DNA of 64,000 nucleotides from Pseudoscleropodium purum (taxonomy: Eukaryota > Streptophyta > Bryopsida > Hypnales > Brachytheciaceae), in contig OZ017801.1 in assembly GCA_963969395.1 (NCBI GenBank), forward strand, positions 1,614,501-1,678,500, in the 5' to 3' direction. The position numbers and the translations under genes are program-made. Below, in pieces: positions 137 through 44,513 of this stretch. Each line of letters begins with the position of its first letter. Positions within the stretch are counted from its first letter, which is position 1. The notes beneath the pieces were generated by a model that saw only the letters and a program-made list of their open reading frames with translations, had not been told where the DNA came from and made no database searches.

Positions 137-2634
137 TTGCTGGATGGGCTCAACATCTAATTGATACACACTTGTTTAAGAAGAGCGGCCATGTTGAACG
201 TCAATGGTCCTTGTTTGGAACCAAAGATATGGTGTTCAAAGTGCAAAGAGATTACAATGCTCGATGGATGGAAAATTTGCGCTTTGAGCTCACTGGCAAT
301 GGCTTTGGCTATCCTGTAAGATATTCTACCATTCTAATTCACAAGCTTTTCATCATAGAAGTTGTAGAGTCAATTCAAATAGTACGGCATGAAATTGACT
401 ATTCTAAGAAGTCAATTGCTCAAATTACTTAAACAAATTTGGGGTGAAGGTGATTTAGTTAATGTCAACATTATATGAAATTTAGAAGAAAATCACTACT
501 TGAATTTATAGGATATAAATAGTATAGTCCACATTAGATTGATTTATTTAAAATATTTTGCTTGCATATTGCATTGCATCTAATTCATTTCCTTTGTTTA
601 TAATATATTCAGTAGAGATTTTGACAGTATGGCTCTCATTAAAGTGCAACATGGTTTAATTTCATAAGTAGAAAGAACAAATTCTAAAGTGGGGGGTTCA
701 TTTGGTTTGGGTTTGTAATTATGTAGTGCTAAGGTAGGAGACTCCATTTGTGTCACAGTTATGAAGCCATCCTATTTGTGCCACTATGTATGTTTAGTGT
801 ACATTTCAAAATTTCAAATGTACTCTATTGATTCTTAGGGATCAAAAAATAGCACAAATTGTCACATGACACAAATAGGATCTTCCTACTTTTAGTTAAT
901 CCCTTGATTGTTATAGATGAGTTTCTTGGTACCTTTGCCTTCAGTTGCCTGGTCTGATAATACCATATATAGTTTAGATGTGCAAGTATATGATACCATC
1001 ATTGAAGTAATTTGAGTTTTGGGTTTTTGTCAGGTGGAATTACGCACAGGTAGGCACTTGCAATATGAGGTCTCTCCTGGGAAGCAGCAAGACTTTGAAT
1101 CAGGATATGTAACTGTCATTCGAAAAACCCCGGAATTTCCAACTGGGAAGGCAACTGCGTTATTCAACTGGAAAGCCATTGCAGTGGAGGTGCTCTATTG
1201 AAATCCGAACCCCTTGTTCAAAATGAGTTTGGTAGAGAGCATGTTCTTTTACTGTAAATGATGTTCTTCTTTTCTAAAATATTAAGAAACTTTGGTTCTA
1301 GTAGAAAAATGCAATACAGAATGCAATATAGAACAATCAATGTATCTCACTCTTTGAATTAACTTGCATTTGAGTAGCCAAATTGATGACAATGGAACCG
1401 ATGAGATAACAATTACCAATCTAAAAGACATTGCATTAATTTTTCAGTTGTGGTCATTTATGAGAGTTTAACACCTTTGCTTTTTAGACATTGGTTTTGT
1501 GATGTAGTCTCTCATAGATGACCCTACACATTTCATACTTTACTCCATTTAATGATTTTTTTCAGGTTTCTCCGGAGGAAAATGTGACAATGGTCATGTT
1601 GATGGCCATTGTAACAGCTCTAGTCGTTCAAAGTTGGTATGAAGAAGAGACTACAGACATAAAAGCAAAAGAGACGAAGAAGATGAAAGTAAAAAACTCT
1701 CGAGCAGACAAATACGGCATTTGGGGTAAGCAGTTCCATCGTCTTTGCTTGAAACTTTGGTACTCAAATTTACTCAAATCAATGCAAGCTACACTCATTT
1801 TTTTACATATTATTTTTGTACTAGAATTCATTTATCATGATTTGTTTAGTGGCTCTTGGGAGAAGAAAGAAGCACTATCTTTGCCTAGAATTCATTAAAA
1901 AATTTCAAATCATTTTCTGTTCTACTCGAAAAATGCAATATAAGCATTTAGCCCAATACTCTTAATTTCATGAATTTGAGTAGTCTTTTTAAGATTTGGA
2001 AACAATAGTTTCTAAAACTATTATACAAGTGATGTATTTGATATGTATTTGATAACTTGTCGGGTTTGCTTACTTTTGAAATCATAGATATGACACTTAT
2101 TTCTTATTTTCTATTATTGTAGGTGTAGTGAGTATGGATAGCAACAACAGCATGGCACTTTCAACCTTATTGCGGGAATTCAAAGAAAGCCCCTCTACAA
2201 ACAACATAGATGCCAAAATATATCGTGACAAGTTGAAAACACTCCCACAATCTGAGTGGTCTCTTGAAATGCTTGAGCTACTTTATGACATTTTCGGTGG
2301 TGGCATCAAAATTGATGATGTTGCTGGATTTGAAGGCGGATATATTAGCTTCAATAAGGGTAAACTAGGATTTCTTGATGGTAGGGGTGGTAGAGGTGAT
2401 GGTGGAGGTGGTAATGGTGGAGGTGGTAATGGTGGAGGTGGTGATGGTGGCGGATGTGGTGATGAAGGAGGTGGAGATGGTGGTGGTGGTGGTGGGGATG
2501 GTGGTGGTGGGAATGGTGGTGGTGGAGATGGAGGAGGAGGATGTGGTGGTGGTGGTGGTGGTGGCGGCGGTGATGGCGGCGGTGGAGGTGGTGGTGGAGG
2601 AGGTGGTGGTGGTGGTGGTGGTGGTGGTAGTTGA
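137..2634 (+). CDS. LURP-one-related-like protein with glycine-rich tail (5' partial)
   Basis: Exons, from splice consensus and phase: 137(?)-315 (donor GTAAGA), 1034-1189, 1566-1725 (donor GTAAGC) and 2123-2634 (TGA). The frame stays open across all three junctions. The N-terminus lies upstream of the window or in an exon I cannot identify. The motif FGTKDMVFKVQRD and the later VSPEENVTMVMLMAIVTALV resemble the LURP-one/tubby-like fold, where a 'LLF-VKR' strand comes early and a 'V-P-----------A-V' hydrophobic helix ends the barrel. A lysine/glutamate-rich stretch follows, then about 55 ordinary residues, then about 85 residues that are nearly all glycine with Asp, Asn and Cys interruptions. 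Plant LURP-one proteins are linked to pathogen responses; a role here is inference. Family assignment is by motif memory only. The glycine tail is not typical of that family. Confidence 0.5.
2380..2631 (+). repeat. GGT/GGA codon repeat encoding a polyglycine tail
   Basis: Imperfect (GGT/GGA/GGC)n with GAT and AAT interruptions, ending in a nearly pure GGT run just before the stop. It forms the C-terminus of the LURP-one-like protein and probably varies in length by slippage. The antisense strand reads as a histidine-rich ORF and another sense frame as a valine-rich ORF; both are shadows. Confidence 0.85.
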
Positions 2635-2946
2635 ATGAGGAGTCCAAAATCTTATTAATACTTTTAAGAGTGATAAATCTTATTTTAGTCATAATAGTAA
2701 TAGTTGTAATAGCAATTATTAGAATGTGTATATGATGATTCAATGCCCATCATGAATAAAGAGTTGTTTGGAGATTGTGCACCTAGCCATGCTACAAGGA
2801 CTTGGATGACAAAGAAGATCCTTTCAATGCAAATTTATGAGCTTTGAGGATGGGATTTTAAATAAATTAAATAACTTCTTTATAGAAATCCATTCATGAA
2901 CTTGTAGATTCAACAACATTCAAATGTATGTACTTCATATCCACTA

Positions 2947-3183
2947 ATGTGTCTTGTACCGTTGCTACAGTCAAAACAAACAAATAATAATTTTCTAATT
3001 TTTTTATTTCATAAAAACTTCAAAATTCAATAACTTTTACACCCTAGGTTAGAATGCCACAAAACCAAGCCTGTGCACCCTTCCTCACCAAGGGCTTTTC
3101 GACAATATTAAACCTAGAAACAAGAAACACATGATTCAGGAGATCTCAACGTAACAAAACAAAACAAATAGCTTAATTTAAGA
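2947..3183 (+). repeat. Dispersed repeat family D, copy 1
   Basis: About 235 bp. It starts near TGTGTCTTGTACCGTTGC, passes through ATAAAAACTTCAAAATTCAA and CACCCTTCCTC, and ends near CAACGTAACAAAACAAAAC. The same unit recurs at 19320, 19565, 39298 and, reversed, near 50605. No terminal inverted repeat, poly(A) tail or coding capacity is visible, so the class is unknown. It lies about 310 bp downstream of the stop of the LURP-one-like gene. Confidence 0.7.
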
Positions 3184-3384
3184 GGAGGATTGATTGATAA
3201 ATATTCTTCAACTATTGAGTTATATGGATGTCTATACTTGTTTAGATGGCAGTTTATAGACCACTAATATAGTCATGATCCCATGTTGAATGTAGTAATT
3301 ATTTTGGAATATAGTATAAAATTCTTTAAAATAAATAAAATATAATAAATATTTCACTCAACAATAAAATAGAGACACCCCAAA

Positions 3385-4319
3385 TTAACCCTTAAAGGTC
3401 AAAATTGCATTTTTTTGGCAACATAGCAATTTTGGACAGCTCACTATGAATGGAGTTTTTATTTTGAAATTTTGAAATTTTTACGCAACATGTGCCCAAA
3501 GAGTAGCTTTAAGGCCCAACAATTTTCATAACTTTTGAGTACATGGTTCAAAATTTATTGTATGATATGTAGTTTTCAATGTTTGACAGGCAACCCAAAA
3601 ATTTATTAAAAATTTATTTTTTTCAAAAATAAAAATTTGAAATTTATTTTTTAGATTTATATATTTGAGGAAAGCTTTGAATCATTCCATTTTGATTTAC
3701 AAGATGAAAGTTATGAGGTGTTCTAGTTTGTAGGTAGTTATGGGTTCCGTACTTGAAAATAAACTTTGGAGTCCTTTATTTAATTCAATTTTTAATATTT
3801 TTTGAAAAAAATAAAAACATATAATGTAAATTGTTTATTACTACATCACTAATGTTGAGATTGGCATTTCCAATTTTATAATTAAATTCTTCACGATTTA
3901 GTGTTTTGAATCACTTTGTGCTTCTTTCAACTTACTATTTTTTTTCCTGTATGTTGTACAATTCCAAATGATCTAAAAAATTTCAAGCATGTATTCAACT
4001 TTTCTTGAAGAATGAATCCGAAGGTTAACTACCACTTTGGACATTTTTTCATACAAATGTGACCTTGTGAAGTGCAATTGCCCGTATTTCCATAGGTTCA
4101 AAAATAATGATTTTTGTCACTTCAAACTTTAATATCTTGCAATCTACATAGTGGAAAATTCTAAAAAAATTTCCACATCTTTTCAAACTAATTTACAACA
4201 AGATTCAACAATTACATGTGTCCAAAGATGTTTTTCATCTAAAATTTGGTGCTTGTATTAGAAATGACAGTTTTCGAGTGTTTTTGGTGAAAACATAGTC
4301 TCCAACCTTTAGGGGTTAA
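3385..4319. mobile_element. TTAA-flanked inverted-repeat element (family P), copy 1
   Basis: About 935 bp, bounded by TTAA on both sides. The left end reads TTAACCCTTAAAGGTC; the right end, read inwards on the other strand, is TTAACCCCTAAAGGTTGG. It has no coding capacity. Its interior is clearly related to the copy at 42764-43696, for example AAGCTTTGAATCATTCCATT and the TAGTCTCCAA before the right end. TTAA target sites with CCC-starting ends resemble piggyBac-type transposons; that assignment is inference. Confidence 0.65.
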
Positions 4320-7886: not shown

Positions 7887-8863
7887 TTAACCCTAGAAGG
7901 CCCAAGGCCGTTTTGGGTTCAAAAACATCATTGCTTTTGAAGTAATATAGATCTAAATGTCACTAAGCTATAGAGATCTTAACTGTGCAATCTTGTAGTG
8001 TACATGTTATTAATGATGTATATCAAATTTGAAGTCATTTGATCGCATAAATTGCGAGATTATAATGTTTTAATGTTGAAAAAGAATGCTGAAATTTTCC
8101 TAAAAACACATTTAGAGGCGAAATTTGATTTCTAAACCTAATCATATGAAAAAACTTCAAACTACAAAGTGATTCAAAACCAGCAAACACATTGGTGAAG
8201 AAAAATATCATTCATTTGACTCAATGTGTTTGCAAAATGGCTTGCAAATATCAAAAAATAGGCAAGAAAAGTTGCAAAAAACACATCTAGGGCTCAACCT
8301 CCTACTAATATGCTTTTCAGTAATTCATTACTTTTTGGATTGATAAGTAGTTTTGTCCACACAAACTAGATTAGTATGTGCAACTTTTCCAAAAAAATTT
8401 ATTGGAAACAGACATTGTATGAAGAAGATACTAGCAGCCGAAGTTCATTGTAATCCATAAATGGCAAGATTTTGAATTTTGAATTTCGAATTGCTCCCAA
8501 ACATTCAGAACAACTTGGATTGACATGAAAATTTTACCACAATAACTAAACTTCAAGGGAAATATTACCCAATAAATTTTAATGAAATCAAACATTGGAT
8601 GAAGGAGATACAAGCCCCCAAAGTTGCAGCCATGAAGTGCACTTTGGTGAATCAAATTGAACCTGTGAACTTCAATTGGCTTCCAGAAAATCAGTACCTC
8701 TTAAATTGATCTGAAAATTTTACCACACAAACTAGAAGAAAAGGCGCAAATTTTCCAACAAGTTTTTATTGAATTTGGACATGGGATGCAAAAGTTACAG
8801 TACTTTGAATCAAACTTAAAACTATGTGAGGACACTTTTTGTCCCCTTGGGGTCTAGGGTTAA
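7887..8863. mobile_element. TTAA-flanked inverted-repeat element (family P), copy 2
   Basis: About 977 bp. The left end is TTAACCCTAGAAGGCCCAAG; the right end read inwards is TTAACCCTAGACCCCAAGGG. Both edges coincide with TTAA. There is no transposase ORF. The terminal CCCTAGAA word is the closest in the window to a piggyBac end. Confidence 0.65.
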
Positions 8864-10355: not shown

Positions 10356-13300
10356 CTACAGCGGCGCAAGGGACGCATTCCCATTCGAAAATAGTTGGTC
10401 CAGCAGCGGTAAGGCACGCCTCCTTCCTGGACCCATTCCAACGCTCTCAAGACTTGACAACGGTGCGAGTCGCGTCAAAATGCAAAACATCTCCTGCATT
10501 GCACCCTGCAAAGCACAACATCACAAAACGCACCAACCTCAATCCCTCTTATCTTGCAAGCCTCCACACCAAAACTATTCCAGAGGTGGCACAGGATGAC
10601 GCACGAAACAATTACGGAATAAGAACTCGGGTAACCCTGCCTGCCCCTTTGGCAATCGAGAAGTATTCAAACAATCCAGATCACGTGGATTGCAGCATCA
10701 GCTCAAGAAGCCCAAATCTCAACTCCCATCATCTCAAGTCGCTGCCATCACAAGGTACCAATGCCACGAACCTGAACTCGATGCATGTTGAACGATCCAG
10801 CTCCAATATTGGCACCAGGACGAAGCGGGTCATCGATTGTCAAAGCGACTGGACCTGATGCCTTGTCAATGTAAAACAAACCGCCGCTGCCGCCGACACC
10901 CTGACATAACACACACCAGCACACAAAACAAACAGTCACTCAAATGAAATTCTAAACCAACGAATCGTGGGAACGTCGTTGTCATCCGAAAACCTAACCC
11001 AAAACATACGCAGTCGATGGAATTCTTCACCCACACACTGCCGGACACCATTCGGTGTCAATGTCATCTGTAAGTCACCCATCCAACACAAAGTCGACCA
11101 CTTCGTGAACTGAAAAAACGATCCAACTACGTACCTTCGTCACGAGACGCACTTGGGTGAAATCGATCGCCCAACCAAACACGTACAGGAACCCAATCAA
11201 AAGGGTCCCGAGATTCGGAGAAGAAACTGTATGCATGGAAGTCAGCAACTGCTCCACGATTCCTCCTGTCCATTGATTGCAACCTCCACTCTTCGAACCG
11301 TTCAAAGCGACCGGACCATGAACACCAACGCTGGATCCTGTTCGTCATCCAATCATCCTGTTAGAGCTGCAAAACGGACACTGCCTAAACATATACATCA
11401 TCTCGTCCACCACCACCTCATTCAACATCGCACACGCGAAGCACCATGTCCACACCCCAACACTTCACGAGTTGTCAATCGGGGGACGACAACTGCAATC
11501 CACCCACCGGGTTCTGAAGGGGCTTCAGAAATGGACGTCAATGTTGACCTCCTATCTGATGACGAGACGGCGTCGCTTGCAGGAGAGAAAGACGACTCTG
11601 CCTCACAAAAACCCAAGGACTCTGTACCAGCTAGGGTGGAAGACATATGCGTCGGCTCAGCGGATGATGTTGAGCTCGTGCAAGCATTCGTAGCCGCAGC
11701 ACTCGGCGCTCTCGCTTCTGTGGGTGTGCCACAAGTAATGGGCACCCTCTGTCACCATCACAAAAAAACTCACCAAATCAAATTCATCGTCCTCGACAAA
11801 TCATCAGATCAAACCCCTGCTCCACACAACAACATGCACACCGCCAAGACCGGGACCAACGCCGAAAGCAGCAAAGATGTACACCAATTAAATCCACATG
11901 CAGTAAAGATCAACTGAGGACGCTAGGATATCACGAAACGTGACCCAAATACGTCATGCAAATCGTCCCAAAGAAACACCGCCGGCGCATTCACAAACAC
12001 ACGGGTTGCGGGACGTACCTCCAGATAAAATACGAGCATAATCGTCAGAGAAAACGATCCAAGGCCTCCAGTGTAAACATCCTTCAGCCCTTTCGAGTGC
12101 AGATAAGACTTCAGAAGCAGAACCTGTTCACAGGTCGACAACGTTGTCAACCACAACCCTCAACATCAACTCAACATAGCACGACGACCCACAAAACCGA
12201 CCCTCTCCACCACGTAACCCTCCACCCCAACAAACATTCGAGCGCATCATATCCGCACTACCACAAACAATAGCACCAACTTCCCAAACTGCACAACAAA
12301 GAGGATCCAAGTACCAGGGGCGCCAAAGCAGGGTGCTGGTGCAGGCGCTTGATCACGTACTCACGGGCTGCAGCACCGTTGTGGAACTGGCTCGCCAGTT
12401 CGTAATTCGAACTCACCTGTCGCACGCTTTCAAGAACTTCGCTGTTCTGCACTGCACCGACAGCTCCTTCACGCCTCATCTTCCTCCCACCGATCGTGAT
12501 ATCGATCTTCACCACCGGAGAAAACGCAGACAAACAACTAACAGAAGGCCTGCAGTGCAGCTTGATCACAGGCATAGTGGCGCTGTCGATCGTGGCAATG
12601 CTCTTGCACCACTCGTAGCCGCGCAACGCTGCACCCAACAAACGAATAGATGGCGCAAGCAAACGGGTTCCCGTAAGACCCGCAGTTTCAGCGGTTTCCA
12701 AAGGAGGGGGCGCATCCACTACCACCACGTCCACATCGCTCTGGGATAGGCACAGACCAGTGGCATACGAACCGAACACCTGACCCCGAAAAAAGAAACA
12801 CACCAGTCAGAACCTGCTCGACGCATACACCACACGAAAAAGGGGCAAGGCATTCACTCTCGCTCCACACTGCCGGTGCCTACCTCCACGTCAGCAATCG
12901 GCCACAGTCGCTTCACGGCATCCCTCACACAATCGATGGCAGCCTCCGCACAACTCCGGGCTTCCGACGACGGGCTGGCTGTGTGAGCAAAATCCAGGAT
13001 TTCCGAGTGCAGCTCCTCGGCGTTCACCAAAAATTGCTGCGGGGGAATTGGAAACATGCCATTCACGTCGAAAAGATACCCCGGCGCCATCGCTGGCACG
13101 GACGAAGGGACGCCCCACCCACCTTGGACGACTCCGTTCTGGACTCCATATTCTCCCTCTCGCAATCCACGAGGGATAGCTCGATACGCCATCTCAGGAT
13201 GCAACACATCTGCAACACATGTCACTCACTTTCAGTTTCTAAATAAAACAAGAATTGACATACGAAAGTCATCCGAAAACGCTCCCCCAATTCCCTGCCC

Positions 13301-16300
13301 AGAACACGAATTCCAATGATATGTACAATCAAAACACACGCATCACAAGCAAATGCACACAAACGGCTACCCACGCTAAAACAATGATGACGTCCTTGCC
13401 ACCGGATTCACCGAAACCACCTATTCAAAAACATTGGTTTAGCTCCGACAGGATCCCCACAGATTGCGTCACCTGAACCTCCTCTCGTACTCACGGAAAT
13501 TAATCTCGCAGCCAAAACCAAGCTCCAAGTCTCTCATACAACTGTCGCCTTCCACGGACACAAGGAGAAAAAGCAACGGACAAGGCGTACAGGCCGCACT
13601 GAACTCAGGCGCAGGACGAATGCAATCCCGCTACACTAAGAACAGACACTCCCGTGTCACTGACTTCGGCAGACCAAATTGCGGACCTTCAGCTTCTACC
13701 ACACCGGAAACACAAACAACCACCTCAACAGCATCCGCAAACACCATCACCAGGACTGACATTGTCACGTCACTCACCAGGACGAAATGACTGTTGAGAA
13801 GGCTGCAGTGGAGGCGGAGATATCGTCGCGGGAATCGACGTAGGATCACTCGGACGCTGCTGGAGAATGGACGGAGCTTCAGCAGCTGAAGGCGATTGCG
13901 TCCTCTGAAAATGTGATTTTTCGTCCCTCTCTTTCGCGACCTTAGACTGCTGATCCCTTCCAACATCGTTTGCAGACCTCGTCGACATAGACACTCGGCC
14001 CTCCTCTTCACCCTTCGTCTGAGAAGCACTGGAGGCCATGCTGGACCTCGCTTCCGACGGCCGAACTCTCTCCTGCACTAAGCTAACTGCCGGAACCATG
14101 TGATCGGCATTCTCTCGGGCTTCCTGTGCCTGCGACCTCGTTTTCGTGCTGCTCTTAGACTCGGCCACACTCGTCGAGACATCCACCTGAGTCTGCGTCT
14201 GCTGTCCAGATGACGCAGGAGGCATTGGAGTTCCAGCAACCGAACCCGACGAAGGCTCCAGCAATCGTCGAAGGACCCCATCACTCCCTTGCCAAGGGAC
14301 CTTCTTACCAGCACTTTCGGGGTCCACACTGCCCGCACCGACTCCAGCAATGGGACGACCTTGGCTACTGGAGCTCCCCGTGCAGTCGTCCTCGTCAGCG
14401 ACTGGGCCACCGGGAGGGCTCTTCTTACCATTGCTACTGCCGTCTCCCGAAGGAACCCTCGCCAAGGGACGCCCACCTTCGATCACCCCCCCACCAACGC
14501 TTCCGCCATCTGTACGAGGTGCCCTGTTTCCTCCCTCTGGCACTGCCGTCGTGGCAGGCACACACGATTTCGTGTCGCTCCACGCCGATCGGCTATCTGC
14601 CTTCTTCGCCTCGCCGTCCCAACACGTCGAGGATTTGCCCACTTTCCTCTCGAGCCACACTAGGTCGCCTGTGTTGTGAGATCCCAAAACCGCTTGCGCG
14701 CCACTGCCAGACGCCTCTGAATTGGTCGATGACCTTCTACTCCCTACCGCCTCAGTGTGTTTACCACTCCCTACTTTACTAACGTCTCCAACAAAATCTG
14801 CGTTCGCACTCGACGGGACACCAACATTAACAATGGATCCAACGCTACTGACGCCGTCCTGACCGCTTTCAACACACTCAGTCCTATCAACACTATCGAC
14901 ACTACCTACATCCGCTGGCATTCCCGCTTTCAACGCTGCACTATACGAACTAAACCCGGCACGAGTCGGAGACTGGGACCCTACTTGCGAGTCCCCTTCC
15001 ACACTACTCCTCAATCCACTACACTCCGTATTTAGCTCATCTGAATCTGACCTAGAACCCCTCTCACTCCCGGTTTCACACAACCCATTCGTGTGCTCAT
15101 CGCTCTTCACAGTGGTGGCGTTGCGAGGGTCGAGATACTCACCTGCTCTAACTACACCATTGGCCTCACCATACGCTACGCCGTTCTCCTTCGTACCCTT
15201 CTTCAACCTTTCCTCATCGTGCGACGCCCAACTCGATGTTGACAATCCCGCACTCGATGACCCGATCCAGGAGTCTGGGTCCAACCGCCATCGCTGCGCC
15301 GTATCAGCCCTGGCCTCCCTGCCTCGTCCGAAGTCGCCGTTCGAAGAATAGTGGCCGCTGGACTGTGACGCATTGCTATTCGCACTCGACCCGTTCAGAG
15401 GAAGCCCCAATCTTCTTCTCCCTGACGAAGAGGTCGGAGAATTCGATCTCTTTGTAGTCTGCGGACGATGAACGCGAGTCCCACTCCCCTTGCTCTTCAC
15501 CTTCACTCTCTCCCACTCGCCTTCTGGGTCGTCCGCACTCTTCTGCGTTTTCGGTGCGCTAGAAGTGCCAAAAAGCTTCAATAACTCTTCTGCCTGAAAG
15601 TTACGCATCACCGATACTCAGACACAAGCCCCACACACAAAGATTCTTCAATCTTCTACACGTGAGCAGCCTGAACACTCGACTCTGGATTTCAATCAAC
15701 ATGCTCGCACTTGACAGTGCCGATAAGCTGTGAAAAGTCTCAAACAGTGGTCTATCACATTCATCTCCTATCTACCTCCATTTCGACCCGTGCACCATTC
15801 GATCAAGACCTAAGGTGAGAGAAAAGTGGCCTAATTCAACTTAATTACTAAAAACCACGGTAGTCACGACCAAGAAAAATGAGCATTTTGAAACAGAGAG
15901 ATGGACCACAAGACCCAGTGGACAGTCCATTACGAGCTTGTTGGCAAGATTCAGCTCACCTCAGGCACTGTAAGCTCTAACCTAAACTTAGGACCATCGT
16001 AGCGATGAACTTTGGAACGAAACGCTGCTTCCTCCAATGGGGGTCTTTCCTCCCTCAGACGCACTCGAACCTGCACAACCAAATTATGGAGATTTAAACG
16101 AATGCATTTTTACGACACCGAAACACACAGAACGAACATGACGAGACTTCGTATTTTTAAGGTTCAATGCGGAAACGTCGCAATTTGGATAAGTACAATT
16201 TAGCGATGCTTGCCCGAATGAATGACCGATGTGTTCGAATTGTTCGACTCGAACATATTGTGTCAAGACACAGTAAGTGATTGGTTGGTAGTGTCAGCAA

Positions 16301-18528
16301 ATGAGTACTAATAACCGATTACCTCCAAAATTAGTGAAAACCGAAGTATTAAGTAGAATTAGTTTTTTGCAGCAGACACGGAAACGATGTGGAGGAAGAG
16401 GAAACATGCCTGGGCAGGAAAACGAGACACTGGTCGTCCGTTCCTTCTTGTTTCTCTCAGTTCCCAGGCCTCGGGTTCAATATTGAAGCCACCATCACTC
16501 GTCGCCTGAAAGAACAAGTTTAGCAAAGCAGACAAAATGTCCCAAAGCAGCAGCCATCCGTACAGGCTAAAAATCCAGTTAGCAGCGAACAATTGAAGTA
16601 GGTCAATTGTATTTATGTTGTGCACCTCACGTGAAAGTCATGCATTTACCTCGTAGACGCCATGCATAGATCTTGTGGTGTAGTTGTAGAGAAACAGTGG
16701 AAGGCCCGGCTGAATTGCCCTCACGGAATCTTGATACCTTTGAGGGAGCCCTGAAAAAGGTAAGGATTGGTTGAGAAGCAGCCTCAAATCTTAATGACGT
16801 AATACAGCGTTGCTTTCTCGTCTACTGCACTGACAATGACCACCCTAACTACTGACATATCTACGTCGCCGAGAACCGACAGTAAAGCAGAGGCTGCAGT
16901 AATAGTACCTACGACCAGAAACACTCCTCCTCAAGCAACGCAAAGTGCACAAAATTGTTGACACAATTCTGCGATTCCCGACAATGTGTGACCTGTCTAC
17001 TGGTCGAGCAGGCTCCTGGTAGAGGCGCCTACCTTGAAACGCCAACCCAGAGATACTAGTTTCTGCAAATTATTCAGGACAAAGGTAATTGAGCAGACGT
17101 TGTATCAGACAAGGCTACGCCACGGGAAATCATTGAAATTCTGGAAACAGAGTACCATACTCAGCCTACATACTCTCCCCGTTCAACTGTCCAAGGAACC
17201 GCAAATCTTTTCCTCACACCAGCTTCCAATAACGAATCTCCACAGAGCTATCTTCACGGGACAACCTCACTACCCGATTCTGAGTGAGTGAATCATGGTT
17301 TCGTCAAACTCCGACTCACTCACAACGCTAATTATAAATCCATTTCCTAGACGCAGTAGGAACACTAGAATACCAAATATGCTGCAGTGATCACGACATT
17401 CTATCCAGAACACTCTGGACACCACCGAGATCAGACTCCAAGGCCATAGGTCCTTCTCATACATCGAAAACATCGTTCAGAGGTATAATTGAACAAACCA
17501 AACGAATCTCCCTTCATGTCCATTGAGGTATAATCCTCGTAAGCATAGACTAAACGTGTAATGGCGTCGTCAGACTTGAAGTGTCTGTCTTAAACGTTGA
17601 GAGAAACGCATCAGTAGTTGCAAATCGCAATGACAGTGTGTCACCCTGCTACTGCAACAGAAGCTATTTCCTTCTCCACATGACCGATGGCTACACAATA
17701 CCAGTCTCCTCAATAGCATGCCTACGGCAGAATTCCGTGAGAGCAACAACACTACCTCATCCCGAAAATCAACCTTTCTAATGAACAAAACGATTCTGCA
17801 ATACCGCGTGCATTCTCATCTCTCGCCATCTCATCTCTCCGCCGGAATTCTTCTACGACGTCATTGCCATCACTGCGTTAAGACCGTGTTGCATAATCCA
17901 GTCCCTAATCCCAGACTTCCTGAAAAGGTCTTACCAACTGCTTCAGAAGATAGCAGGAATTGACCTCTCTCCATTACCAATGCCACCAAATCCTCCTAAC
18001 CCGGCACGTTAACAGGTCTGTGCCAAACCGTAGACGAGGGAGCAAGATTTACAAATAAAGGAAGGCGCAGTCAGTTAGGACCGCTCCACTATACAATCGA
18101 ACATGTTCGGCTCCCTAATAATTCGACACGCCTCGTGTGAGACTCCAACAACAGATGCGCAAATCCTATTCAAATTCCAATAGACAGATGTCCCCAATGT
18201 TCAAAAAAAGGTGACATTCGTAATCCCTGCTCCGATTGCCCTGAAAACCTAACGTCACCTAAAGCGATGGGAAAACTGTAACATGACCAAGTCGGAGTCG
18301 GGAGGCAGAAACATTGATTGAAGGAGAAGAGAGTATACCGAACAAGTGACGCTCCAAGTCTTCGCGCATGGTGTCATTGTTGCAAACGAATATGAAGCCT
18401 CCGAGAGGCTCATTCAGACCGCCGGCATTGCCAGCAGAGGCGCCTCCATCCACCTTCCGCTCTTTCATGTGACTCACGTCCATGGGCACCGTCGGTCCCG
18501 GGCGATGGTATTTGGCGGTGGCCACCAT
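10356..18528 (-). CDS. DCD-domain / TRF4-type nucleotidyltransferase fusion protein (12 exons, 1,273 aa)
   Basis: Exons (descending): 18528-18339, 16750-16650, 16505-16410, 16070-15960, 15593-13778, 13209-12884, 12779-12315, 12123-12019, 11748-11508, 11226-11135, 10900-10772, 10505-10356. The total is 3,822 nt, all phases agree and the end is TAG. The start ATG sits in AGGATGG context; no in-frame ATG precedes it after an upstream stop. Residues ~41-166 are a DCD domain (FIFVCNNDT, LFGLPQRY, PGLPLFLYNY, HGVYE, FPAQVRV, YDGPKFRLEL). Residues ~167-772 are a Ser/Gly/Thr-rich linker. Residues ~845-1273 are a non-canonical poly(A) polymerase: GSYATGLCLSQSDVDVVV with Asp895/Asp897, third Asp973 in VVKIDITIG, then VYTGGLGSFSL, NLGTLLIGF and LTIDDPLRPGANIG. 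TRF4/PAPD5 enzymes add short A tails to nuclear RNAs for exosome decay; that activity is inferred. A misjoined pair of genes is possible, but no stop or phase break separates the halves. Confidence 0.85.
11508..11748 (-). other. Ser/Thr-rich insert exon inside the nucleotidyltransferase core
   Basis: Exon 9 of the fusion gene, 241 nt, entered after GGTGACAG and left at GTGGGT. It is the only candidate that reconciles exon 8 (ends in phase 0) with exon 10 (needs phase 1). It adds about 80 residues rich in Ser, Thr, Ala and Glu between VFYLE and NLGTLL, where TRF4-family proteins usually have a short loop. It may be alternatively spliced. Confidence 0.6.
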
Positions 18529-23544: not shown

Positions 23545-25591
23545 CTAGTGCAAGGTCGGGGCGCTATCCCAGTCCAACTGCAGACACTTCCGAAATGCCG
23601 AACGGGAGGTAACGGCATCCCTCCACGCAGCAACAAGCGGCAAATCGCGCATCACCTCGGGTATCAATTCCCCCACCCACCTCAAGTAGGGCGCATGGCA
23701 CGCATCCGCCAGACTATATTCTTCACCTACCAGAAACCTTCCCTTCCCCTGCTTGGCCAAATGCGCCTCGTATACCCCCAGAACCTCTCGGAGTTTCACC
23801 ACACCCGTTGTCACGAGCTCTTTGTTCACAGGGCGCTGGAATCCGCGGGCCATCAGAATCTCACGGACCAACGGCTGTGCCACGGGGTACAAGTTGTGCG
23901 CCTCGCATTCCACCCACTGGTTCACAGTCGCCCGCTCTTGCAAGTTACTGCCTAGGAGCGCTTGCAACCCATACTTCTCCACGATGTAGCGAGCTATGGC
24001 TCGTGACTCTGATTGAAATTACAGAAACAAGTGTGAAAATCTTTCAAAATTTATGAGGTCTTTCATAATATCATAAAAATGTGCACATCCTTGGAACACC
24101 CTTGAATGGAAAGGCCGAGGGGTCCTTCTACAGTATCACTACAAGAAGAATATATTTGTGTTACCATGGCCTAGAATACATTGACAAGCTTGCATTCAAA
24201 ATGTTGTCCAGCGAAAGGAGCCTTCAATTCAAGGAAAGCAAAGGGTCTTAGGGTTTTAGTTATGCCTGCTTCTAGGGCCAGTGGGTACTTTTAAAACCCA
24301 TCTTTCTGCTCAGAGGAGATGAGTTTTCAATGTTGAAAACGGGTACCCACATGCTTGACACGGGTGACACTTTCTAACATTGGAAGAGCAGTTCAACAAT
24401 GCCAATGTACCCCATAGCAAGGATGGAAGTGGCTGCGCTGAAACTTACTGATGACAAAATGACACACAACAAACCAAGTAGCTACATTGAAAGAGACTCT
24501 ATGCTTGCAACAGTATGAGAGGCTCTGTAACTAATTACTTCGTGAGGTTTTCTTTAGAGCAAGGCCTAAGTTTTTAGTGGCAAAGAACACTGAATACATG
24601 AACCCACACAAGCTTTCTTACTTCACTATAATTGCAAATTAAGTTGATGCAATGCAATGTCCGTTTTGCTCCAGAGGAGACATACGAACGTCAAAGAATC
24701 GTGTGAGTTCTTCGATGACGTCACCAAAAGAACCAACCATCACGAATACGTGGCAAACTTCACAGGTTTTTGTGGTGTTTTAGTGCAGAGTGGGTGGGGA
24801 GCATTCTTACCAAAGAGTGAGATGTCGTCATCTTCTAAATAGGGAATCTGTCCAAATGGCTGCAGAAACAAGGATGCAGAGCTTGTTGTGAGCAACTAAG
24901 TGTGATTCGAGAGACAGCACGCCTGAGATCGATCATTTGGATGCTGGAGGGAAACTGACCTGTCTGGACAAAAAGCTGGGCTTCCTTTGATCTTGAGAGA
25001 ATATGATGTCCACCTTCACCAACTCTAGTTCCTTCTTCACGTCCACCTTCCAAGGCAGTCCACAAATATTAGAAATCGGACTCTGCATCCTCCAAAATGG
25101 CAGGACTTCATGATCAGCTGCGACTACAGAGTTGTTTACACAAGTACTGCCTGCCAGCCTGCCTTAAAAATTTTAGGGTTAGTTTAGACTTCCTAAGGTA
25201 ATCAAAAGTACTACAGTCAGACACTTGCAGGTTAGCTGACCTAATCTCACAACCTCATTGGGTTAGACTCGAAAATCATGGTGCCACCACATTTTGTAGC
25301 ACACAATTACGTTTGCGTCTCAATTAGACAGTACTACCTTATCAATAACATCCGCCAATTACCCTTTGTTTCAGCAAACAGTTGTGGCAGTGGAATTCTT
25401 TTCCATTAGGCCCAAACAATCTGGACACGACTCAGAAATGAAATTGTGTGCAACAGCAATCGGACCCATAATCACAAGAGTGTTTCATGATATAGAACCA
25501 GGGTGGGTAACGTTTGTACCTCCGCCTCGAAGAGCGGCAGAATGGCACGCTGCACATTCGTAGTGTCTGCGCCATACAACTTCATCACCAT
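23545..25591 (-). CDS. Phi-class glutathione S-transferase, 223 aa, four exons
   Basis: Exons (descending): 25591-25520, 25046-24960, 24859-24811, 24008-23545. The total is 672 nt and all phases agree. The thioredoxin-like domain is residues 1-~80: KLYGADTTNVQRA at the start, with Thr11 where phi enzymes carry the catalytic Ser; then VKVDIIFSQDQRKPSFLSRQ, the cis-proline motif PFGQIP (54-59) and the glutathione-binding ESRAIARYI (from Glu70). The all-helical C-domain is entirely in exon 4 and includes NQWVECEAHNLYP and FLVGEEYSLADACHAPYL. Phi GSTs conjugate glutathione to electrophiles or reduce peroxides in the cytosol. Length is normal for the family. An intron after residue 24 splits the first helix region; angiosperm phi genes, as I recall them, lack it. 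A possible 5' UTR intron ends at TTATTTATTTCAG just before the ATG. ATG 25591 or the one two codons later could be used. Confidence 0.93.
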
Positions 25592-28568: not shown

Positions 28569-31500
28569 ACCTATGTGACTTTAATAACCTTGCATAAATA
28601 TAAAAAATAGATGAAATATAAAAATTAGACTATCCTTCATATAATAACAAAATAACTCAAAAGCTATTAGAAAAACAAAACATGTTTGTCAATTAAAATC
28701 ATAAGCTACACTTACTTTGTAATGTCTACATCATAATCCACATCATATTCTAATTTAATGTCTAGATCTTCCCTAATTAGCACTTCAATTCATCAATTTC
28801 ATTTTGATGCCTTGAAATGCAGTCATCACAAATCCAAGCTATGGATCCACTCAATCCTCTATATCTAACCTTCTTCAATTTAAATTTAGCATAAAACTCT
28901 CTCTTATTTTGATATAGTAGCTCTAAAAATTCTTTCAACCACCTTTGTGCTTCAACCTTTGAATTGTCATCAATCAACATCTTGGATTGGTTTCTCAAAT
29001 CATTTGGCAAGGATTCCAAAGTTGCTAAAGGAATCTAATAATCTAAAAACTTGGGAGTGTCAAGAATCAAGGCTATAAAACCAATACCATCACTAAAATC
29101 GGGGACCATTGCACCCATCCCACAAGCAACATGTGCACGAATCTTCATCAATATGGTGGCTATCTTTAATCCCCAAAATAACATGCCAAGAAACTTCTCG
29201 GTGTATTCCGTTCCAAAATTGACCCTACAACCTTCTTGGCTTACAACCTCATGGAATTTGTGTCTACTTTCACACATGAGGTGAAGTTGGATTTTGTTGG
29301 GATCAAGCACCCATCTTGTCAAGAGCTCTTTCTTTCCAATTTCACAAAGATAAGCTAGCTTTGGAATTTGTGATTTTTGTATCTCTACAAAAAATGCCAT
29401 CAAATCATTAATCCTTGAATACACCTCATCCAATAATTCCCCTTGCATGATTTTAATATCATGTTCCAAACCTTGAATCAATTGCACTACATCAACAAAT
29501 TTTGACATTGTCTCTATATGATGTGCATGATTTTCTTGTATAAAGTGGTCTATTTTGGCATCCCATAGTCCATAAAGGAATCTTTGAGGCATTTGCTGAA
29601 GTGAAGTAGTTGATAAAGCAATCTTTTCATTGCACTTGGATGGATCATTTTGAACCAAAGTATTCAAAGACTGGATTTCCTTGCAATACTCTTTAAGATG
29701 AAGTGACTTCTTTTCCAAAAAAAATTTCCAAGTCAAGCCTCCTACTAATGTCTTCACCTTGTTAAACCCCACATCCAAGTTTTCACATGATTTCAAGTAT
29801 ATGTAGCAAGTATACTATTTTTGATAACCTCTACTTCCAAATCTTTCATGTGAACAAATTGATTTTTGTAGTCTATAGGAGAAAGTAACTTTTCCACACA
29901 TGCAAGACGCAAAATGTAATCCTCTAAAAGAACTCCAAAACAACCCAAGGTGGGATCTCTTTGATGATGTTTGATATGCATGAGTATTCGATTTTCAAGG
30001 AATTCCAACACCTTGTCTTGACTTTGATGGGATTGTAAAAGGATGTTGATATCACCATGATTGAATTGAAGAATGGCTTCAATTCCTTCACTTATGAATT
30101 TAATAACATCTTGAAGTACCTCATATGCATCTCGAATATTCTTGCTTTGAAGCATTTTGAAGAATGAAACCTACACAACATGTCAACAAATGAAATGTAA
30201 ATAATAAAAATTGAGGTCAATTTACAATCCAACAATTTTAATTCATGCACTTCATGATTTGCTTTTAAATCAATAGATATAAATAATAGATGCAACTATT
30301 TTTTATACTAAATCAATGACAGAAAGATATTACATTGGAAGCCATCCAAAAATGTGCAAATTTATGAATATTAGCTAGATTATTATTGTAATAGGATGGT
30401 ATGTTTAGTATTTTACATCAATAACGATTCATTTTCAAACATGTAAACACAAAAACCTATTGAACAAGAAACATTAAAATATCATAGGAATTCAAAATTC
30501 ACCTGAAGACGTGTGAAGAAGCTTGGAGTCATCATTGTTTTGGTTCCATCCTTGCAAGCCAACCTCCTTCCAACATATGTGAAGCTTGTTGTTTCATCAT
30601 GTTTGGACCAACTCAAATAATTGAGTTTGTTTCTTAAGGTTGATGGAATTATAATGTGATGAGCATCTTGCTCATAGCATATACATAGTTTGATCATCAT
30701 GCCCAAGATGTCATCAAATTGTTTCTCCATGTCCCCTTCACCTTCAACAAGATCTAATACAACACACCTCACATATTCAATTGATATGATCCCATTTGAA
30801 GAAACCATATCCAATCTAGGACCCTCGATTGAGCATTGGTGTAGGAATTGTCTAATGATGTTGTGACAAAACCAATGGGGATTTGTAATGACAACTCCTT
30901 CTTGCTCATTGTAAATGATGTGTCCTCCATCATTTAAGGCTATAGCCACAAACTCCTTCCACTTTTTAGCAAGCTCCTCATCCACATCATTCAATTCTTC
31001 CACTTCCTTGCACATGCCTTCACAAAACTCATCCCACTTCAACAACGGTGGTTTTGATTTGTCTGTGTTCCAAGATGCCACCAAACGTTGCACTTCTTCA
31101 CATGCTTGTATGGTTTGGGCAACCTCTCCAACAATCTCTTCAAGTGCGTTTTGATGAATTCAAATACACCACAAGCATGTGATACAACTCTACCATCCAC
31201 CTTGAATACAAACTTGTCTTCATCAAAGTTGAGGATCTCTTGAAATTGAGTTTTCAACTCCAAAACCACATCATCAATGCGTTTTGCAAATGCATGATCA
31301 TCCTTCCAATAGTCAAAATGTGTCATGACTATAGACACATGCGGATGAAATGAAAGTGATTGCCTTGTATTGGATGCAATGAATCGCAACCAAAACTCAA
31401 GTTCAACTTTTATACTTGGAAGCCTACGTCCGTTAGAAAGATTAGATTGTTCCATGGGATTGCACATGAGCAAAAACATTGAACAACTTCCATCCTCTGA

Positions 31501-32505
31501 TAGATTTGGCATCACCAACTCATGGAAAGAATGATAGTTGGTTTGACCAGCCATGTCCCAAATGGTGATGCCAATGTCATTACATTGCACACTATCAACT
31601 TCAATGCCATGTGTACGTTCAAGTTGAAGGTCCTTTGTCACCACTTTGGGGGCATTTGAAGTTTTGAAAGTGTTCTTTATTTTTTCTCGAAATCTTGAAC
31701 GTTTTTGAATTTCATCTTTCCCTTGAAATTCCTTCAATTCCTTCATTGACATTCGCAATGATGTTAATCCTCCACAAAAGCCAAATTATGTCTGAATAGC
31801 TTAGATTTGAACACAAAATTCATACATTTGCCACATCCATCACTCATATGATATTGAAGATATCTAATTAACTTCTTGAAGTTTTAAATTATTGTAATGA
31901 CCAAATGTTAATCAACACATGATATGTCAAAGCACTCTTAAATCCTTTGTTTTGAGTCATTTCTATTGATTGTAAATTATAATGAAGATGACTTTAATCA
32001 TTAATTAGAACATATACTCTACAACTTTAACAATAAAACTATTCTTTTGTTGCAAGAGAATGAAGCTGAAACATCATATGGAGGTTTTTTCTAATGAAAT
32101 CTTTGCAAAGTTGAAGTTTTATATTTCAAACCTTGATTCACTTACAAATAAGTGGACTTAACAACTAGTGTTGTTCTTATAACATACTTGGAGCATGTCT
32201 GCAAGGTGCATAAAAAGATTTAACATAAAGAAATAGTATAGATGTGCTCATTTTTTGAATGAGTTATTAAATGGAATATATCACTACTGAGAAGGCATTT
32301 AAATTTATTGATATGAAACTAAAAATACATCAATGATGCGGGGCATGAGGGTTTAGGGTATGTAACTCGTATCTTGTGGTTTTTGTTTGTACATAAACAT
32401 CTTAATTGATATGTATATCCAAAAAACAGAATTTTGCTTGGTATATATTTTTAATGTCATGTGATTCATTTGCTCAAAACAAAAATCTTTGAGACTATCA
32501 CCTCA

Positions 32506-42251: not shown

Positions 42252-42763
42252 GTTTAATGAACCACAAGAATAATTAAATCTTATATATATGGTATAGTTT
42301 TAAAAATAGCAATTACTCCATATTCTTATGCACAATAGAACTTTTACCTCTAAGGTGCGTTTCAACCTATATATGGAAGGAATTTTTGTCATTAAAATAT
42401 TTTATAACCAAGGTATCAAAGAAATTTTTACTACAAAAAATAACTTTGATTTATCACATTAGTGCACATCAAAGTCAAACTATACATTAGAAAAAATCTG
42501 AGCCTTATAGAGGGCCATTAAGGATTTAGTTTTTGGCGCCCCATAGTGCAATTATAGGAAAATAAAAAAATATTTTTTTTTGAAAAAAAATATTAAAGAA
42601 GTATGAAAATGTGATGTGGTGTTGACATGGCACAAGTAGTGCCACATCATCAAGTTTCATTAAAAAATAGAAAAAACTGTGGAATTCCTCTCTAATTGAA
42701 TCGGGGTAGTTGTGGGCAATTCAAAACTTGAAGCCTTTTCAGGGCCTGAAATTTTTTGTAATG
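42252..42763. other. AT-rich intergenic DNA
   Basis: No gene recognised. It has a weak resemblance to the extra DNA around 62640-63170 (GTGCAATTATAGGAAAATAA compared with GTGCAATAATAGACAAAAAA). Confidence 0.4.
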
Positions 42764-43696
42764 TTAACCTCCAAAGGTCAAAACTGCATTTTCTGGCAAC
42801 TTAGTAATTTGGGGTAGCTCACTACAAATGCAGTTTTTATTTATTTTTGCTGAAATTTTCACACAACCTATGCCCAAGGAGTAGCTTTAAGGCCCAACAA
42901 TTTTCATAACTTTTGACGATATGGTTCAGAAGTTATCGCATGATATGTAATTTTCAATGCTCGATGGGTAGCCCTAAAATTCTTTAAAAATCACTTTTTT
43001 TTAAAATAAAAATTTGAAATTGATTTCCTAGATTTATATATATATGTAAAAAGCTTTGAATCATTCCATTTTGATTTATGAGATGAAAGTTATGAGGTGT
43101 TCTAGTTTGCGGTTAATTATGAATTTCCTACTTGAAAATAAACTTTGAAGTCTTTTATTCAAGTCAATTTTAATATTTTTTGAAAAAAATAAAAACATAT
43201 TATTTAGATTGTTTAATAATACAATATCGCCATTGGTATTTGAATTTTTCAATTTTATAATTAAATTCTTAACAATTTAGTGTTTTGAACGATTATCTAC
43301 TTCTTTCTACTTACTAGTTTTTTCCTACATATTGTGGAATTCCAAATGATCTAAATTTTTTCAAGCATGTAGCCAACTTGATTTGAAGAATGAATCCAAA
43401 GAGTAACCACCATTTGGGACATTTTTTCATACAAATGTGACCTTATGAAGTGCAGCTGCCCTTATTTTCACAAGGTCAAAAAAGTGATTTTCGTGACTTC
43501 AAACACTCATATCTGCAATCTACATGGTGGAAAATTTTGAAATTTTTTTACACATCTTTCCAAACTAGTGTACTACATGATCTTATGGCTTCATGTGTCC
43601 AAAAACGTTTTTCATCTAAAATTTGGTGCTTGTATTAGAAATGGCAATTTTGGAGCATTTTTGGTGAAAATATAGTCTCCAATCTTTAGGGGTTAA
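42764..43696. mobile_element. TTAA-flanked inverted-repeat element (family P), copy 7
   Basis: About 933 bp. The left end is TTAACCTCCAAAGGTC; the right end read inwards is TTAACCCCTAAAGATTGG, both at TTAA. It is nearly the same length as copy 1 and collinear with it throughout, so the two are recent relatives. No coding capacity. Confidence 0.68.
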
Positions 43697-44513
43697 ATTA
43701 ACGCACATTCAACTATTATAATGGTGTTGTATCAATTTCTACCCAAAAATATTGTGGTGACACTAATTGGAATGGTGATATTGATCTTGTGTCTTCATTA
43801 ATAGAATAAATCAATGTAGCTTGATCATTTGCTCATATGAATTGAACATAAAAAGTTTCATAAATGACAAAGAGGTCATATACTTAAATTCATACATGGG
43901 ATATAAAATTGCAAAATTTAAAAAAATATATATCATGTATAGAACAAAGTGATCATAATTGAATTATATTTGTGTAACTTTTATATTGTGTTATGCACAT
44001 GAGCAATTTTTATGACTGCATGGTGTTATCTACTATGGAATCAAGTGAAATTGATTTGTCTTATTAGAGATTGAAATTAGTAGTAGTTTTTACAAAATTT
44101 GTACCACCACCATATTATTTGGTTATAAACAAGTAAATAATTTGTTTCTACTTATTGTTCCATTTGGATCAAAGTGCATATAATTGAACTTTCATGTTTT
44201 GTGCATGAGAGCATTTTTAATTGCTACATGCCAGTGTTCCACACAAGTTCGAACTAATCCTATATATTTTCATGAAGGATGAGCAATACTTGTCAAGATT
44301 ATCCATCAATTATCCATCAATTTAGAGCTATTTGTAAAATAATCAAATACAGGTGACCATATAATATATAGCAATATCTATTAATATGTCTAATATATTT
44401 TGGTAGAGCTTGACTTGTCCATTCCTAGTATTTGTGACAATACTGCATTACAAAATTAAAAAAAACTTTTAACCTTTCTTCATGGCAAAGATCTTTGCCT
44501 TAACCCTTAATAG
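43697..44513. other. AT-rich intergenic DNA
   Basis: No gene or clear repeat recognised. Confidence 0.55.

Follow-up and report, generated by a model that had tools for sequence, protein, structure and literature searches.

A moss gene that joins a DCD domain to a TRF4-type nucleotidyltransferase and may encode a reader-guided RNA tailing enzyme

In the moss Pseudoscleropodium purum, a single minus-strand gene encodes a protein with a DCD domain near its N-terminus and a TRF4-type nucleotidyltransferase in its C-terminal half. The gene lies in a stretch of 64,000 nucleotides of contig OZ017801.1 (assembly GCA_963969395.1; C45:1614501-1678500), the whole of which we analysed and call the window; residue numbers are those of the 1310-residue window protein. 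We are nearly certain that this architecture is real. As to function, the best explanation that we can offer, and one that we hold with belief and doubt in about equal measure, is a single-chain RNA tailing enzyme that would be guided to its substrates by a reader domain of its own. The main rival to this proposal is that DCD serves to bind proteins or to localise the enzyme.

The gene consists of 12 exons, running from 18528 to 10356, which join in frame into 3933 nucleotides (ATG at 18528, TAG at 10356) and span 8173 bases with introns included. All 11 introns have an AG acceptor, and the donor is GT in 10 of them and GC in intron 3. The frame of exon 10 closes with the acceptor before 11337, and the GC content of the exons is 45-58%, as compared with 36.5% across the window. 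A sequence-only reading of this DNA had proposed twelve exons with closing phases that lead from a DCD domain to a nucleotidyltransferase; we arrive at the same exon borders, and both the exon chain and the order of domains hold up against Pfam and against one-piece alignments with relatives. The parts of the gene are as follows.

10356..18528, minus strand: whole coding span, with DCD domain, long linker and TRF4-type nucleotidyltransferase; 12 exons, 1310 residues (exon chain, Pfam).
18339..18528, minus strand: exon 1, residues 1-63, start codon and beginning of the DCD domain (exon chain).
16650..16750, minus strand: exon 2, DCD domain (exon chain, Pfam).
16410..16505, minus strand: exon 3, DCD domain, followed by the GC-AG intron (exon chain; identical donor type in the second copy).
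15960..16070, minus strand: exon 4, DCD domain (exon chain).
13778..15593, minus strand: exon 5, residues 167-771, end of the DCD domain (AEELLKLF), then linker with the motifs EWExV (residue 192), SYxAxLK (residue 382) and WQGxD (residue 600) (exon chain, alignment).
12884..13209, minus strand: exon 6, end of the linker and initial nucleotidyltransferase helices (exon chain, Pfam, search of solved structures).
12315..12779, minus strand: exon 7, palm domain with GS (883-884), Asp895, Asp897 and Asp973 (exon chain, alignment).
12019..12123, minus strand: exon 8, central domain, GGLGSFSL from residue 1054 (exon chain, alignment).
11508..11748, minus strand: exon 9, mainly a variable insert of the central domain (exon chain, alignment; pLDDT <50 in the corresponding part of the Selaginella model).
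11135..11337, minus strand: exon 10, helix PNLGTLLIGFL of the PAP-associated region (exon chain, sequence match).
10772..10900, minus strand: exon 11, IDDPLRPGANIG, nucleotide-recognition region, with Ala in the place of Cid1 His336 (exon chain, alignment).
10356..10505, minus strand: exon 12, final helix and TAG stop (exon chain).

At the start of exon 2, Ceratodon and Physcomitrium models (P0001-P0005, P0007 and P0008) differ by about 15 residues, ETSISGLVRASLRFR versus EPSISWLVRESLRLQ, which may reflect an alternative acceptor.

Relatives carry the two domains in one protein. Window residues 1-1309 align unbroken with a Ceratodon protein at 70% identity, residues 3-1310 pair with residues 10-1347 of a 1347-residue Physcomitrium protein in a single alignment at 63% identity, and relatives cross the junction between exon 5 (15593-13778) and exon 6 (13209-12884) without a break. 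A search with residues 780-1310, with the length range kept at that of whole proteins (720-2290 residues), gave 49 relatives, which are not independent, since some rows are isoforms and a single Ceratodon locus accounts for five of the models. Both domains (PF10539 and PF22600) are present as a single protein in 46 of the 49; a DCD call is missing from P0026, although a worn DCD can still be made out there, and from P0040 and P0049. When the enzyme half of the Cryptomeria protein was the query, 35 of 46 proteins had both domains. The other 11 comprise P0026, P0040, P0050 and P0051, which fall more or less in the clade, a fifth such member, the fragment P0053, and distant enzymes. Among the relatives, no orthologous pair of separate genes, one for the DCD domain and one for the enzyme, was seen, apart from four clade members without a DCD call (Klebsormidium P0051, P0040, P0050 and P0053); at least some of these look like short gene models, and the 548-residue model of P0051 begins 22 residues before the enzyme. 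The orthologues in other species that the sequence-only reading had named as a check are therefore found, and any notion that the fusion might be unique to this genome does not stand, the fusion being widespread in public databases.

Transcript-like records agree with this picture. P0006 and P0009, the Physcomitrium proteins of 1347 residues, come from the source 'lgn', which we take to be assembled sequencing runs, and their longest contigs measure 4918 and 5252 bases, of which the coding part alone takes up 4041. Given that the window gene spans 8173 bases, these contigs are too short to hold introns and so look like spliced RNA; the product of one of them is aligned over its length with the window protein. 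P0006 matches the RefSeq protein P0008 at 99.8% and 95.6% identity over two stretches, and P0024 has a transcript-style name and its open reading frame at 654-3620.

We reject an annotation or assembly chimera of two adjoining genes, which we consider extremely improbable. DCD-only relatives are present elsewhere in the genome, and some public models of the family are plainly faulty (P0027, in which the DCD start is doubled, and P0033 and P0035, with foreign N-termini), as a chimera would lead one to expect. Such a chimera is difficult to reconcile, however, with an exon chain that is in frame, with fusion in 46 of 49 relatives from many species and sources, with contigs too short for introns, with linker motifs common to the window and algae, with the end-to-end Physcomitrium alignment and with an intact second copy of the gene.

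This second copy is inverted and lies 63 kb away, at C45:1553628-1561439 (genome searches had hit its DCD exon at C45:1554743 and its enzyme exon at C45:1559013), and keeps the 12 exons, their phases, the GC donor and 1310 codons with no inner stop. The DCD domains of the two copies group together in a tree (100/99). Synonymous (dS) and nonsynonymous (dN) divergence between the copies are 0.60 and 0.074 in exons 2-4, 0.049 and 0.022 in exon 5, and 0.017 and 0.0033 in exons 6-12; the 5 changes per 190 in exon 1 are too few for inference. The simplest reading is an older duplication, after the split from Ceratodon, in which the 3' two thirds were homogenised by gene conversion and the DCD exons escaped. 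On that reading, the ratio of 0.12 shows that the DCD exons have been under long purifying selection in both fused copies.

DCD-only relatives are dispersed in the same genome (L018 4348-5526, L022 2016-3462, L025 4829-3959 and L026, on C45, C42, C1 and C41). They have 60-80% identity to the DCD exons of the fusion and similar exon borders; no enzyme half was found in the 4 to 14 kb downstream of L018, L022 and L025, and L026 looks broken. The SM0 algal model P0027 carries at its start nearly the DCD start of these loci, and the DCD-only line may be old.

The catalytic half occupies about residues 837-1266, where Pfam matches MTPAP-like_central at 838-958 (E 1.1e-12) and NTP_transf_2 at 866-902 (E 1.8e-9); neither Kelch nor ParB has a Pfam match in the window protein at E <= 0.001. 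Kinship with TRF4 and the presence of the GS, DxD and third Asp motifs had both been read from the translation, and both are confirmed. Among solved structures, Trf4 (3nyb, E 5.9e-25) matches the C-terminal 540 residues best, followed by Cid1 chains at E 2.8e-7 and weaker, and 3nyb is also the first Foldseek match of the catalytic half of the Selaginella model, which matches Trf4/TENT enzymes. The palm motifs are GS at 883-884, Asp895 and Asp897, and the third Asp at 973. GS is kept in 55 of 56 aligned rows of the clade, and so is each catalytic Asp (an Asp is missing from P0016 and from P0053). This conservation speaks against a catalytically idle scaffold, as does a dN/dS of 0.19 between the nucleotidyltransferase exons of the two copies, though that value rests on just 7 synonymous changes. 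No activity is on record for any member found, which such a scaffold would explain; even so, we consider an idle protein very improbable.

The DCD domain matches PF10539 over the whole profile (positions 1-126) at residues 43-174, with E 4.5e-38 and 130.3 bits against a cut-off of 27.8. The motifs FGLP, PLFLYNY, PAQV and PLEE can be read in the translation; the family motifs given in the accessible part of the 2005 DCD paper are FGLP, LFL, PAQV and PLxE. That paper also describes conserved cysteines; the translation has one Cys in FVCNN. The DCD domain of the Selaginella relative was folded alone, because VIA-align with the two-domain model had returned only the catalytic half, and this isolated fragment matches EVE and YTH modified-base readers: there are 23 Foldseek matches at E <= 0.001, all of them to base-reading families. 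Likeness in sequence to EVE/YTH is weak (2p5d, E 0.0091), and a Pfam scan of 10 DCD fragments for EVE/YTH families returned DCD alone, plus one chance NMT_C match (E 0.044, one member). The link of DCD to EVE/YTH would thus be one of predicted fold together with a weak profile match, and the modelled fold points to recognition of nucleic-acid bases. In alignment A2, a GxP with an invariant Pro is kept, as is an aromatic residue (F/Y, 10/10) before an invariant Pro. By weak alignments, the kept Pro and aromatic may correspond to P24 and W82 of VcaM4I, whose flipped-base pocket we take to be formed by P24, W82 and Y130.

Between the two domains lies a linker of about 660 residues, which is predicted to be disordered in the Selaginella relative. 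SYxAxLK occurs in 15 of 28 proteins examined, from the window to Selaginella, Taxus and algae with SM0 identifiers (presumably Spirogloea), and WQG[N/S][D/E] in 11 of the 28, from the window to Closterium and also in P0040, a model that lacks DCD. Neither pattern is present in P0058 or P0061, two proteins considered below. The patterns were written after viewing alignment A1 and are descriptions, not tests.

Based on the architecture and the conserved residues, we propose that the C-terminal half is a terminal nucleotidyltransferase of the TRF4/TENT4 type, which probably extends RNA 3' ends by short, A-rich tails; that it is active, and with a preference for ATP, is what we infer. The N-terminal DCD domain, with its EVE/YTH fold, probably binds a base, which may be a modified one, of a putative target RNA. 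The long flexible linker would allow DCD to hold the body of the RNA while the enzyme acts on its 3' end, and DCD would thereby supply, within the chain, the RNA binding that Trf4 receives from its partner Air1/2. In most cases such a tail would direct the RNA to trimming or decay by the exosome, which is plausible.

A more specific form of this proposal is that DCD is a true reader of modified bases, so that the enzyme writes a 3' tail in response to an internal chemical mark. The pairing would then predate land plants, and perhaps even the green lineage (P0058, P0061), and would have been lost toward flowering plants; because of that loss, work on Arabidopsis would not have met the enzyme. 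We regard this form as possible and put it forward tentatively.

Several points weigh against a reader-guided tailing enzyme. A fold held in common does not by itself show function, and the structure models are those of the Selaginella relative, not of the window protein. Several clade members have no DCD call (P0026, where it is eroded, P0040, P0050, P0051 and P0053). At E <= 0.001 the window protein shows no PAP_assoc (PF03828) match, and the Selaginella relative reaches 22.2 bits, just below the cut-off of 22.6. Finally, the uridylyltransferase URT1 scores level with Trf4 in VIA-align. Tails of U, or mixed tails, in place of A, with a part in cytoplasmic decay or small-RNA control, are nonetheless improbable in our view: Trf4 is the best solved relative by sequence, far ahead of Cid1; structural alignment gives 30% identity with Trf4 as against 15% with URT1; and at the place of Cid1 His336 the window protein has Ala, with His in 0 of the 52 members that have a residue there.

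It is also conceivable, if rather unlikely, that DCD is a localisation or protein-binding module, which would bring the protein to a stress granule, P-body, nucleolus or cell-death partner and leave it to partners to steer the enzyme. The naming of plant DCD proteins for roles in development and cell death, as given in the available part of the 2005 paper, favours such a module, and the short conserved motifs of the linker, patterns chosen after alignment, resemble docking sites. The Foldseek matches of the DCD fold, by contrast, are solely to base-reading families, and the partner half would act on RNA. The sequence-only reading had gone further and seen in DCD an attached stress or cell-death module, for which we find no support: the fold is that of EVE/YTH, and we do not attach a cell-death link here because it is drawn from the family name and from other proteins. 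Cell death is not needed to account for the fusion.

In the tree of the catalytic half, the closest relatives are those of Ceratodon and Physcomitrium (100/99). Hosts of the fusion include mosses (Ceratodon, Physcomitrium and three Sphagnum), liverworts (Marchantia paleacea, two Riccia and Calypogeia), lycophytes (Diphasiastrum and Selaginella), ferns (two Adiantum and Ceratopteris), conifers (Taxus and Cryptomeria) and the alga Closterium; identifiers beginning SM0 and Mesen1 presumably add Spirogloea and Mesotaenium. No flowering plant was seen among the matches that carry an organism name, which is an indication only, as the searches covered the best 7994-7996 candidates by shared words and many matches carry no such name; orthologues at the 40-45% identity of conifer and moss proteins should be found among that many candidates. 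The organism-named matches of the same searches likewise include no hornwort.

P0058 and P0061, with 42% identity to each other over part of their length, combine DCD and a TRF4-like enzyme with a C-terminal RRM, and the automatic name of P0061 is 'Terminal nucleotidyltransferase 4B ... PAPD5'. In trees of the enzyme halves they group with the streptophyte fusions against 8 outgroup rows (99/97) and against 5 (99/95), the latter after out57, out59 and out60, the longest or gappiest branches, and several near-duplicates had been dropped. Their branches in these trees are long, as is that of their DCD domains, so a separate fusion event is possible. Judged by these sequences, the pairing of DCD and enzyme would be either older than streptophytes or have arisen twice. 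One tree places Klebsormidium P0051 among the zygnematophytes (97/93) and another puts it at an open fork; a topology in which the remaining streptophytes form a group that excludes it is not clearly rejected (p-AU 0.051).

Elsewhere in the window, minus-strand open frames at 29038-31785 show weak similarity to Roc (22.6 bits, cut-off 27) and COR-A (19.5 bits, cut-off 35.3) and perhaps belong to a ROCO-type protein, and 23548-24018, also on the minus strand, encodes a glutathione S-transferase C-terminal domain (PF00043, E 1.7e-13). A dispersed repeat has two copies, at 3385-4319 and 42763-43699, about 80-84% alike, and is also found beside the DCD-only locus L018. Rfam gave no match within the window at its gathering threshold.

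If the proposal is true, base recognition is coupled directly to 3' tailing in one plant chain, a task that known systems divide among separate readers, adapters and tailing enzymes, and DCD, known for two decades mainly through stress and cell death, acquires a concrete and testable function. Since the gene is present in Physcomitrium patens and in a Marchantia relative, functional work is feasible in model mosses and liverworts; if it is absent from flowering plants, as it appears to be, maps of RNA tailing based on Arabidopsis would miss one branch. Databases know the fusion as 'DCD domain-containing protein' or 'hypothetical protein', and UniProt holds unnamed members. In the open-licence literature as far as searched it is undescribed, the sole paper found there to mention a DCD domain together with a nucleotidyltransferase being PMC12839542, which concerns BREX.

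Among known systems, yeast Trf4, the polymerase of TRAMP, and human TENT4A/B (PAPD7/PAPD5) share the catalytic core, with 3nyb the best match by sequence and by Foldseek and with the same GS, DxD and third Asp; the window protein adds to this core a DCD domain and the linker that precede it. Trf4 is helped by Air1/2, and to our knowledge neither Trf4 nor PAPD5 has a DCD domain. By description, Arabidopsis TRL/NTP10 (AT5G53770) is likewise a TRF4/5-like adenylating enzyme of plants, which acts on pre-rRNA according to the main text of a 2026 review of plant tailing enzymes, as far as that text was available; neither 'DCD' nor moss occurs in it. DCD proteins of groups I-IV (NRP, DCD-Kelch, ParB-DCD) share with the window protein a DCD domain above the Pfam cut-off and its motifs, but the architectures in the accessible part of the 2005 paper (DCD C-terminal, central, N-terminal with ParB, or with Kelch) include no nucleotidyltransferase, and the window protein, with an N-terminal DCD and then this enzyme, fits none of them. 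The sequence-only reading, which knew of no such combination, is thus in agreement with the available portions of that paper and of the 2020 EVE/DCD paper PMC7641849. EVE/YTH readers resemble DCD in fold and differ in family, in catalytic partner and, for the most part, in sequence. Parallels in design come from the latter paper in the portion available: plant CPSF30-YTH joins a domain of reader fold to 3'-end machinery, and DCD-YTH-CPSF30 of heterokonts and the DCD-CAPAM-like and eTudor-DCD proteins, which are predicted there to read modified RNA, join DCD to mRNA-processing parts. These DCD proteins are without a tailing enzyme, and TRF4 is not named in that portion.

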